Virus record (IMG/VR): IMGVR_UViG_3300046171_000177
Coordinates: 1-49,244 of that record
DNA: 49,244 bases
Source of the DNA: a virus
Direction: 5' to 3' (one strand)
Every line of letters begins with the position of its first letter. Position 1 is the stretch's first letter. Shown here one piece after another: positions 6,868-49,174 of this stretch. Position numbers and translations under genes: made by a program. Below the pieces are notes generated by a model. That model made no database searches, was not told where the DNA came from, and saw nothing but the letters and a program-made list of their open reading frames with translations.

Positions 6868-7743
6868 ATGTCAAAAAAGAAACAAGAAGAGCAAAACAAT
6901 CAAGAGGATTATTATGTGCAACCAGAAGACTTTACCCCTACGGTAGAAGCTGCACAACAACAACCTCAAGTAAAAGAAAAACCTGTCAAAGTAAAACTAC
7001 AGGTTGAAAACAAAACAAAAGATAACTGGGAGATAAAAGACAGGCTTTATGTTTTAGCAAATGGCAAAAAGCCATTAAGCAAATCTATTAGAGCAAGCGA
7101 TATATTCTGGTTTGACGAAGAAAAGGGTTACGAAAGAGAACTAAAGCTAACATCTAATCAACGAACAGTTTTTGTTGATGAAATGAAAGGTGACCAAAGG
7201 TTAGAGCATATTGTTTTTAGAAACGGAACTTTATTTGTGCCTAAAAACAAAGTTGTTTTACAAAAACTTTTATCATTATATCACCCTCATAGAAACATAT
7301 TGTTTGAAGAGGTGAATAAAGTTAAAGAGGCTGCAACAGATTTAGATGTTTTAGAAATGCAGCTAGACGCTATGAATTTAGCTACAGCTTTAGATATTGA
7401 TGTTGCTGAAGCTGTAATGAGAGTAGAAGTTGGATCTGAAGTATCTACGATGAGTTCTAAGGAGCTTAGAAGAGATCTAATGCTGTTTGCTAAAAACAAT
7501 CCCGCTTTGTTCATAGAGCTCGCCTCTGACGATAATGTTCAATTAAGAAACATTGGAGTAAAAGCAGCCGAGCAAGGTATTATAACTTTGTCGCAAGATC
7601 AAAGACATTTCAACTGGTCTAGCACTGGAAGAAAGTTAATGACAATTCCTTTTGATGAAAATCCATATTCAGCACTAGCTGCTTGGTTTAAAACTGACGA
7701 AGGTGTTGAAGTATTTTCTTCGATTGAAAAAAGATTGAAATAG
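6868..7743 (+). CDS. Hypothetical head-associated protein
   Basis: A 291-residue protein between the major capsid and the connector genes. Residues 1-55 are polar and Q/E/K-rich; residues 60-125 look like a small mixed domain (WEIKDRLYVLANGKKPLSKS... NGTLFVPKNK). The rest is helical with acidic patches. There are no signal peptide, membrane segments or catalytic motifs. Its place right after a terminator suggests separate transcription or read-through from the capsid gene. Proteins of this shape in this position occur in marine podoviruses, but their role is not known to me; a head-completion or decoration role is only a guess. Confidence 0.7.
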   Translation: MSKKKQEEQNNQEDYYVQPEDFTPTVEAAQQQPQVKEKPVKVKLQVENKTKDNWEIKDRLYVLANGKKPLSKSIRASDIFWFDEEKGYERELKLTSNQRTVFVDEMKGDQRLEHIVFRNGTLFVPKNKVVLQKLLSLYHPHRNILFEEVNKVKEAATDLDVLEMQLDAMNLATALDIDVAEAVMRVEVGSEVSTMSSKELRRDLMLFAKNNPALFIELASDDNVQLRNIGVKAAEQGIITLSQDQRHFNWSSTGRKLMTIPFDENPYSALAAWFKTDEGVEVFSSIEKRLK

Positions 7744-42458: not shown

Positions 42459-43208
42459 TTACAGATAATCAATCACTTGCAAGTGAGTTACATTAGCTTT
42501 TAACTTATCAATTGCTTGTTTTTTTAACTGAGAAACTCTAACGTAAGAGCTGCTTCCGTTTATATTTAACTTGTCAGCTATTTCTTTAGCAGATAGTTTA
42601 TCACAACCAAGCCCGTAGCTTAATCTAATCACATGATATTCTTTATCTGTCAAGTGTTTAAGCATAAGCTTGTTTAGTTGTTGATATAGTTTTTCTTTTT
42701 TATATGGGTCTTCGCTTTCATCTTCATATTGTGGCAACATGTTGTCGTCAACCTCTTCATCAATACTTTGAAACATAGAGTTGTAGAACATAGCTTGCTT
42801 ATCAGGATCATCTTCAAAGCCTTTACGTATGTCATTTAACTTATGCTCAGGTATACGCATTGGTGATCTATTAGCATCAGTGCCACGGCGTATTGCACCG
42901 CGTATACGTTTAGCTAAGTAAGACTTTAATGTTTTTTCAGGATCAGCAGACTCAACTATAGTTGACCAAGTTATTTTGTCAACAGCTTGTATTAAACCTA
43001 TTTGACCCATACCCATTAAGTCTTGTATGTTCATTATACCCGATGCAGAATCAGACGTTGAAAACTTACGAGCTATATTTTCTACAAGCGGTAAAAACTT
43101 AACTATAAGTTCGTCGCGAGTATACTCGTCCCAAAACTTACCATTAGGCTGTGACGCTTTTAAATCGTCTTTATACCTCTTGTAATTATAACTGTTATAA
43201 TTTTTCAT
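42459..43208 (-). CDS. RNA polymerase sigma-70-type factor (phage sigma)
   Basis: 249 residues. Region 2 covers VENIARKFS ... IQDLMGMGQIGLIQAVDKI ... LKSYLAKRIRGAIRRG; region 3 is short (RIPEHKLNDIRKGF); region 4 is LTDKEYHVIRLSYGLGCDKL and SAKEIADKLNINGSSSYVRVSQLKKQAIDKL, a helix-turn-helix. No region 1.1 is present. The phage has no RNA polymerase in the window, so this factor probably directs host RNA polymerase to phage middle or late promoters, for example those of the rightward virion block. A 63-base AT-rich gap with TATATATATAA follows it, before the ERF gene. Confidence 0.92.
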   Translation of the reverse strand: MKNYNSYNYKRYKDDLKASQPNGKFWDEYTRDELIVKFLPLVENIARKFSTSDSASGIMNIQDLMGMGQIGLIQAVDKITWSTIVESADPEKTLKSYLAKRIRGAIRRGTDANRSPMRIPEHKLNDIRKGFEDDPDKQAMFYNSMFQSIDEEVDDNMLPQYEDESEDPYKKEKLYQQLNKLMLKHLTDKEYHVIRLSYGLGCDKLSAKEIADKLNINGSSSYVRVSQLKKQAIDKLKANVTHLQVIDYL

Positions 43209-48219: not shown

Positions 48220-48532
48220 ATATTTCTAGTTTAGATATTAATTCACTTGTGTATTTAGCTACAAGTTTTTCTTTGTAGTTTTTAGCTAAATCTTGTTGGT
48301 ACTTAAGCTTCATTGCTGAAGGAGAACTAGACGTAAAGTATTTACCTCTGTTTGCTTGTAAATCGTTACTGTAATCGTGATAGTCAGTGATGTAGTCAAT
48401 GTAGCTTGGGAGAGACCCACCTAAATACATAGCTATTTCTCTGTGTATTTCAAACATTTCTTCTGCTTTTTGTTTAATGTACTTGTCAGCTTTGTGCTGT
48501 AATTGCTTTTCAATTTCATTAGTGTCTTTCAT
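48212..48532 (-). CDS. Hypothetical helical protein
   Basis: 106 residues, strongly helical with coiled-coil ends (EIEKQLQHKADKYIKQKAEE and LAKNYKEKLVAKYTSELISK). No motif recognised. Overlaps the next gene by eight bases. Confidence 0.66.
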   Translation of the reverse strand: MKDTNEIEKQLQHKADKYIKQKAEEMFEIHREIAMYLGGSLPSYIDYITDYHDYSNDLQANRGKYFTSSSPSAMKLKYQQDLAKNYKEKLVAKYTSELISKLEIFE

Positions 48533-48714
48533 AATTCAATTTTAATTAAGTTAATTCTTCCGTCAGAGTGAGACATCCACTCACAATCGTCTATTTTATG
48601 ACCTTGATCAAGCATAATCTTTTCAAAGTCTTCTGTTTGTAGTTCTTTGTCAGTATCTATAATATACTGATATACTAAGCCATCTTCAAAGTCTAATACT
48701 GTTAATGTATTCAT
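48529..48714 (-). CDS. Small acidic hypothetical protein
   Basis: 61 residues, acidic beta/alpha (LTVLDFEDGLVYQYIIDTDK, then HKIDDCEWMSHSDG). The leader AAATTAAATAACT precedes the ATG. It is the first gene downstream of the GC-rich structured gap. Function unknown. Confidence 0.66.
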   Translation of the reverse strand: MNTLTVLDFEDGLVYQYIIDTDKELQTEDFEKIMLDQGHKIDDCEWMSHSDGRINLIKIEL

Positions 48715-48745
48715 AGTTATTTAATTTAATTTGTTACTTTATAAA

Positions 48746-48927
48746 ACGAGGTGGCCAAGTGAGTAAGATTGTAGCTTCGTTACTATCACTGATCGAGCCA
48801 ATTCACTACATACACATCTCACGCGCCACACTCGTATACCGGCGTCAGGTGAGCAGGGATTTTTAGGGCACTCGCGACCCATCGGGTCCAATGCCACTAC
48901 TCTTCGACTCCCACAGTACTTCTACTG
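48746..48927. ncRNA. Candidate structured RNA or origin element in a GC-rich gap
   Basis: In the 244-base gap 48715-48958, 62 of 110 bases at 48811-48920 are G or C, in a genome that is otherwise AT-rich. Nested helices are visible. ACGAGGTGGC (48746-48755) pairs with GCCAC-a-CTCGT (48825-48835, one bulge). AGTGAGT (48758-48764) pairs with ATTCACT (48801-48807). 48767-48774 pairs with 48780-48787 around a CTTCG loop. Further 3' are GACCC/GGGTC (48876-48888) inside GGCA/TGCC, and CAGTA/TACTG (48914-48927). Several pairs are G-U when read on the plus strand, weakly favouring that strand. No known RNA family was matched. A replication origin is an alternative. Confidence 0.5.
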
Positions 48928-48958
48928 CTTCGCTTATTGTTAAACCTGACTAGTTTCT

Positions 48959-49174
48959 TTATCTAAGACAAGTACCGTAACCTTTACGTCTACCTGCTTT
49001 GTATAATGCTTTTGCTACTTCTTGAGTAACCACTTGTATTGTGTTACCTGTTTTATGGTTTATAACTGGTGCTGATGCTACACGCTCAACGCCACTACAA
49101 GGCATACACGTTTTGTACCCGTATTTTTGTCTTACTGGGTGTACGGGTTCACCACATCTACAATATTTTGCCAT
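48959..49174 (-). CDS. Small zinc-ribbon-like protein
   Basis: 71 residues with two cysteine pairs at the N-terminus (CRCGEPVHP and KTCMPCSGVE), likely a zinc ribbon, followed by a mixed domain (NTIQVVTQEVAKALYKAGRR). It is probably an early gene; the stretch between it and the next leftward gene is the structured gap. Function unknown. Confidence 0.7.
   Translation of the reverse strand: MAKYCRCGEPVHPVRQKYGYKTCMPCSGVERVASAPVINHKTGNTIQVVTQEVAKALYKAGRRKGYGTCLR

Follow-up and report, generated by a model that had tools for sequence, protein, structure and literature searches.

GOLLD and ROOL, large ornate RNAs of phages and prophages, are found near tRNA islands and measure 600-800 nt or more (PMC12286853). 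Phage tRNAs evade tRNA-cleaving defences (PMC11555353), Racrs act as RNA anti-CRISPRs (PMC10651486) and an RNA of phage phiTE mimics ToxI (PMC3475682). Hammerhead ribozymes (Rfam RF00163 and RF03152) are also known in phages (PMC3088659). Structured phage RNAs are usually known as single fixed families; at the loci described here, predicted hairpins instead behave like protein domains.

Here we analysed an intergenic gap in a window of 49,244 nt, which is a 49-kb virus record. From comparison with related loci, we predict that the gap comprises a pair of structured non-coding RNAs, A (116 nt) and B (96 nt), both encoded on the minus strand. They share with GOLLD and ROOL that these are phage-encoded, structured, non-coding, often beside tRNA genes and of unknown function (PMC12286853). 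GOLLD and ROOL are, however, large single families, whereas A and B measure ~100 nt, carry exchangeable hairpins and occur alongside tRNA-like and ribozyme scaffolds. Clustering of tRNAs or tRNA-like RNAs and a possible counter-defence role recall the defence-evading phage tRNAs (PMC11555353), but the companion RNAs here have no anticodon arms and cannot decode, and neither A nor B is tRNA-like. Racrs and the ToxI mimic, as small phage RNAs and decoys of a host RNA, offer a possible working analogy only: each is one mimic, whereas many modules on many scaffolds occur here, with no resemblance to CRISPR repeats or ToxI in view. As for phage hammerheads, related contigs carry canonical cores behind genes, one of them with a module of the window in stem III, but neither A nor B contains such a core. 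Finally, an 81-nt RNA in related contig L110, outside the window, has the tRNA-like ends of tmRNA (RF00023) but is too short for an mRNA-like domain, pseudoknots or a tag frame.

Searches of known families returned little. No Rfam 15 family matched the window at the gathering threshold; the best permissive match, DUF805 RNA, scored 16.9 of the 51.1 bits needed (E = 2.8) on the opposite strand, and no GOLLD or ROOL covariance model matched in the window. Among 50,697 phage records, no DNA similarity was found for the window's end, and a three-element array from a related contig (L012, order E-B-D) gave just three short weak matches (E = 0.4). The larger gaps of the cultured elemo phage NC_055853 and of MW202828, inspected by eye, showed no A/B-like sequence; both genomes contain other GC-rich structured stretches. 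In a literature search that did not cover most subscription journals, we found no description of a hairpin common to hammerhead stem III and other RNAs, nor of phage RNAs that exchange hairpin modules among tRNA-like, tmRNA-like, ribozyme and other frames. This gives weak evidence that the module-exchange system is new in kind; on their own, A and B would each make a new family of structured RNA.

Two candidate RNA elements in a GC-rich gap

The gap (48715-48958) is flanked exactly by minus-strand genes. The gene upstream of the array encodes a 71-amino-acid protein with no match in PHROG or Pfam, which served as the anchor for finding 67 relatives in IMG/VR. The terminase of the window is closest to that of MW202828 (65%) and also to those of Flavobacterium elemo and Cellulophaga phages. 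The host is thus likely to be one of the Flavobacteriia, from marine or fresh water. When the gap was compared by BLAST with the relatives' loci, it split into two parts that are combined differently among loci. The features are as follows, all on the minus strand.

48959..49174: open reading frame, 71-aa zinc-ribbon-like gene, directly upstream of the RNA array
48839..48954: predicted RNA element A (long form), three arms, closed by GUCAGGU/ACCUGAC; 11 relatives plus the window
48844..48950: A outer helix P1 (48944-48950 with 48844-48850), sequence nearly invariant
48913..48928: A hairpin P2 with GAAG loop, pairing in 100% of cells across the 12 copies
48851..48902: A third arm, comprising P3 and the apical module P4
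48897-48902 with 48851-48856: A P3
48867-48895: A P4, removable apical module; 5 relatives have a short loop in its place
48742..48837: predicted RNA element B, outer stem CGAG(u)GUGGC/GCCACCUCG, then P2 and an internal loop; U-run at its end
48770..48810: B exchangeable apical module UGUAG[UGAAUUGGCUCGAUCAGUGAUAGUAACGAAG]CUACA, which recurs elsewhere and is supported by a swap test
48715..48741: AT-rich leader preceding the next gene's ATG, unpaired in the predicted fold
48529..48714: open reading frame, 61-aa gene downstream of the array, LTVLDFEDGLVYQY family

An earlier note, made from the window's letters alone, had described the gap as GC-rich and highly foldable within an AT-rich genome. 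The composition agrees: G+C is 44% over the gap and peaks at 59% in a stretch of 100 nt, against ~36% genome-wide. The gap does fold, but its fold energy is only moderately unusual relative to chance, with RNA z-scores of -2.07 on the minus strand and -2.19 on the plus strand (3-5 of 200 shuffles equally good), a DNA z-score of -1.49, and values of -2.10 for A and -2.41 for B folded singly. It is the comparative evidence, from pairing in A and the swap test in B, rather than energy, that places the gap far beyond chance. The nested helices and outer stem of about 10 bp in the earlier description are present, the stem with a one-base bulge, but this stem is confined to B; a second independent structure, A, occupies the other half of the gap.

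Element A and the strand of the RNA

We aligned A from 11 relatives and the window (12 copies, 31 predicted pairs, 279 cells). Standard pairs form in 99.3% of cells, a percentage inflated by deriving the structure partly from the window's own fold, against at most 49% in slid controls. Both sides had changed in 7 cells, against 1.8 in shuffles, a count that is unaffected by the source of the structure, as is the strand asymmetry below. On four of five pairing measures none of 500 shuffles matched the alignment; on the fifth, 29 of 500 did. The P2 stem reads CAGUA/UACUG, CACCA/UGGUG or CAUCA/UGAUG beneath a constant GAAG loop, with both-side changes at two pairs across the 12 copies. A module related to P4 was found on another scaffold in contig L109.

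Read on the minus strand, the non-Watson-Crick standard cells of the alignment are 28 G-U and 0 A-C. The RNA sense of A is therefore the minus strand, leftward and co-directional with the neighbouring genes; in a plus-strand RNA those 28 cells would be mismatches. This overturns the original reading, in which G-U pairs pointed rightward, against the genes. The test uses A alone, and B is taken to run leftward because it shares the array with A.

Element B, a predicted platform for exchangeable hairpins

B was parsed in 26 distinct copies from the relatives and the window. Constant among them are the outer stem, of general form CGAG(n)GUGGC/GCCACCUCG, and the internal loop AYGUGUA/AUCUUA (AUGUGUA/AUCUUA in the window). 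P2 is GUGAG/CUCAC in the window and becomes GCGAG/CUCGC in remoter loci and GAAGG/CCUUC in L052, with the internal loop unchanged; these changes were taken from a pattern scan, MAFFT having misaligned L054. That scan, a lenient one, gave 22 matches, at least 2 of which look spurious, against 3.0 expected from shuffling, and 4 of 32 B-core matches (L094, L095, L101 and L105) were judged chance.

The apical insert, 14 to 104 nt long, is mostly unrelated in sequence among copies, yet the contiguous stem that closes it averages 4.30 bp, against 2.20 bp with swapped halves (0 of 20,000 permutations), in a test free of any predicted structure. From these comparisons, B is a constant platform with an exchangeable apical hairpin. 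A second arm, CRCRG.../...YUGUG, occurs in ten copies; the permutation scan of its closing stem reached just the invariant outer part. In L026 and L050 the platform is nested inside a larger structure, and B-type elements also lie behind other genes in relatives.

Taken together, the two elements uphold the earlier proposal of a novel structured phage RNA, as bases change among relatives while pairs persist, both in A (99.3% of cells) and in the covarying insert-closing stems of B; the loss of pairs that the note held would count against it was not seen. Its other contrary sign, a conserved protein frame, was also absent: a 52-aa frame (48739-48897) crosses both A and B, and within it relatives differ by entire hairpins, with varying lengths.

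Arrays of elements in related phages

An array of one to five elements lies behind the 71-aa gene in ~25 relatives, which are podoviruses of Flavobacterium/Cellulophaga type. Its order is consistent, running from A or a tRNA-like element E through C or F and then B, or a shortened B, to a tRNA-like element D or a tRNA-Arg (C, D, E and F being named by eye); the window itself carries A followed by B. Every copy was found on a metagenomic contig, with several independent samples represented. Identical or near-identical arrays recur across different metagenomes (L012/L013 and L023/L025), so they are not single-assembly chimeras.

The gene after the array belongs to one small family in 16 of 23 relatives and to other families in the remaining 7; three unrelated gene families follow the array in relatives. 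In four relatives (L004, L007, L015 and L021) a promoter-like motif, AAATACGA n8-11 GATAA, lies between array and gene.

The same motif also precedes many genes in relatives, and a sigma-70-like protein of the window (42459-43208, minus strand) might read it. Separately, an inverted repeat, GTGACAATAGCCTGTTACTA...TAGGCTAATGTCACA, recurs in AT-rich intergenic DNA of L026, L036, L039, L050, L054, L085, L111 and L118.

Hairpin modules moving between frames

Comparison of these loci shows that entire predicted hairpin modules come and go, and that they are grafted from one scaffold to another, unrelated one. The hairpin M1 (UAU-GAGGUUCUUAGCCCUC-C) occurs within phages in 9 unrelated flank contexts. 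Its hosts include B, other dedicated hairpins, tRNA-like frames (L116) and an E-like frame (L112), and in L018 and L110 it is nested in another module. The M1 closing stem varies by context and stays complementary (14 flank variants, permutation p = 1e-4); three contexts have no adjacent closing stem. As an RNA, M1 was not found in 84,980 bacterial and archaeal species. Two archaeal matches with homologous flanks look coding and were dismissed as coding or chance.

The insert of the window's B occupies four settings, including the window, and its closing stem differs or is re-paired each time. In L073/L084 it serves as B's second arm, in L039 it sits on a B-like platform with a different outer frame, and in L143 it lies in stem III of a predicted hammerhead of type I. 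A loose pattern for this module gave 21 matches in viral contigs, with structured RNA just in L084/L073, L134/L039 and L143. The remaining matches look coding or chance.

Hairpins in this lineage thus appear to be reused, nested and transplanted between unrelated frames, a putative ribozyme among them, with helices re-paired at the junctions. If transcribed, they would represent natural combinatorial RNA design by viruses.

Companion RNAs

The scaffolds that accompany A and B in relatives include, as judged from their predicted folds, anticodon-less tRNA-like RNAs, a tmRNA-like RNA and hammerhead ribozymes. The tRNA-like RNAs have a T-arm and a 7-bp acceptor stem without an anticodon arm. ARAGORN does not call them, reporting in these relatives only tRNA-Arg(UCU) in L008 and L073; in the window it finds no tRNA or tmRNA, and a T-arm/acceptor scan gives no window entry. 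The tmRNA-like RNA lies at L110:8368-8448 on the minus strand (RF00023, 69.4 bits).

Canonical hammerhead cores are present in seven contigs, some immediately after stop codons. They were sought by regular expression (CUGANGA...GAAA...UH) with checks of three stems, and the same scan found none in the window.

L143 ~13159 and ~13481, minus strand of L143: predicted type I hammerheads directly behind genes
L043:4147, L085:2111, L099:3394, L106:4310, L119:7174 and L073:1744: predicted type I hammerheads directly behind genes

Rfam gave Hammerhead_1 for the short L099 ribozyme, submitted in isolation, at 23.9 bits (E = 0.00037, below gathering) and did not recover that of L143, so the hammerhead calls rest mainly on the core pattern and the three stems.

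Several further features of these companions were observed. The true tRNA that recurs in this phage group has the sequence of tRNA-Arg(UCU) (L008, L044, L046, L048, L049, L051, L058, L073 and L118), and several tRNA-like elements resemble its D-arm. Stem III of the predicted hammerheads in L143 and L043 holds long module-like inserts. At L036:8642-8788 the extra arm of a tRNA-like element is exceptionally long (the element measures 150 nt overall), and L052 (~7030-7318) has a possible giant tRNA-like RNA with acceptor GCAGCUCG...CGAGCUGC, T-arm GGGAGGUUCGAUUCCUCCC and ~250 nt enclosed.

Proposed function and alternatives

We consider it somewhat probable that the elements are modular trans-acting phage RNAs, each with a conserved scaffold and exchangeable arms. 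The array would be co-transcribed behind the 71-aa gene, and its elements excised by RNase P/Z at tRNA-like ends and by hammerhead self-cleavage elsewhere. The excised elements would persist as small stable RNAs. Two observations suggest action in trans: 7 of 23 relatives have a different next gene, the promoter-like motif intervening in four, and the conserved parts are hairpin motifs kept in any frame.

Hairpins of this kind resemble binding sites. That a lytic-type phage should swap binding sites rapidly hints at a conflict with host factors that vary, and by analogy with Racrs (PMC10651486), the phiTE ToxI mimic (PMC3475682) and defence-evading tRNAs (PMC11555353) we tentatively propose that the hairpins bind proteins or RNAs in trans, most likely as decoys titrating host factors, for instance defence proteins that bind or cleave RNA. 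Module exchange would then represent adaptation to changing host targets. Equally conjectural is the wider suggestion that a marine phage lineage may possess a combinatorial arsenal, with modules on tRNA-like, tmRNA-like, ribozyme and dedicated (A-F) scaffolds neutralizing host, probably defence, factors. If so, each phage would have its own small-RNA set. Provided that they are transcribed, the modules would supply ready RNA-binding baits for bacterial targets and allow a direct test of whether phages use diversified RNAs against defence in the way they use proteins.

A rather unlikely alternative is that the elements are spacers that process or stabilize transcripts, serving as 3'-end protection, attenuators or cleavage marks with neutral module identity. 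Such spacers would fit the placement between co-directional genes, the hammerheads immediately after stop codons at related loci, and the U-run of B, which resembles an imperfect terminator. Mere stable hairpins would, however, need neither the conserved internal loop (AYGUGUA/AUCUUA) nor modules such as M1 and that of the window, and one element would suffice where arrays contain up to five different ones.

Somewhat less plausible still, and on the whole unlikely, is a cis-acting leader, in which the next gene would be regulated from its 5' side by the elements, as a riboswitch or by protein binding. Structured leaders do occur in tandem in general. The array lies directly upstream of a gene, B ends 27 nt ahead of the ATG in the window, and the recurrence of one gene family in 16 of 23 relatives would allow for a cis role; the riboswitch-like leader suggested in the earlier note is weakly supported. 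Against it stand the three unrelated gene families among those that follow, the unrelated next genes of 7 relatives, the AAATACGA-n-GATAA motif intervening in four, the B-type elements behind other genes, and the tRNA-like elements and true tRNA-Arg that fill the same slots. A ligand-binding leader would also keep its apical part, which varies here.

Mobile DNA repeats, with the hairpins as miniature elements inserting into one another as DNA, seem quite improbable. Nested insertion of module in module in scaffold (for example M1 in L018, L110 and L117) and the recurrence of the same hairpins in different places would be expected of them, but every junction keeps an RNA helix, the closing stems covary, G-U pairs occur in one sense only, and a non-systematic look revealed no target duplications. 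A replication origin or other DNA-level structure, the remaining suggestion of the earlier note and one invited by a GC-rich, foldable gap in an AT-rich genome, is barely credible: DNA folding reaches a z-score of only -1.49, several different elements stand in tandem and are variable and dispersed in relatives, the GC skew of the window turns at 33.5-34.5 kb rather than at the gap (a turn that may reflect gene direction), and the G-U asymmetry points to selection at the RNA level.
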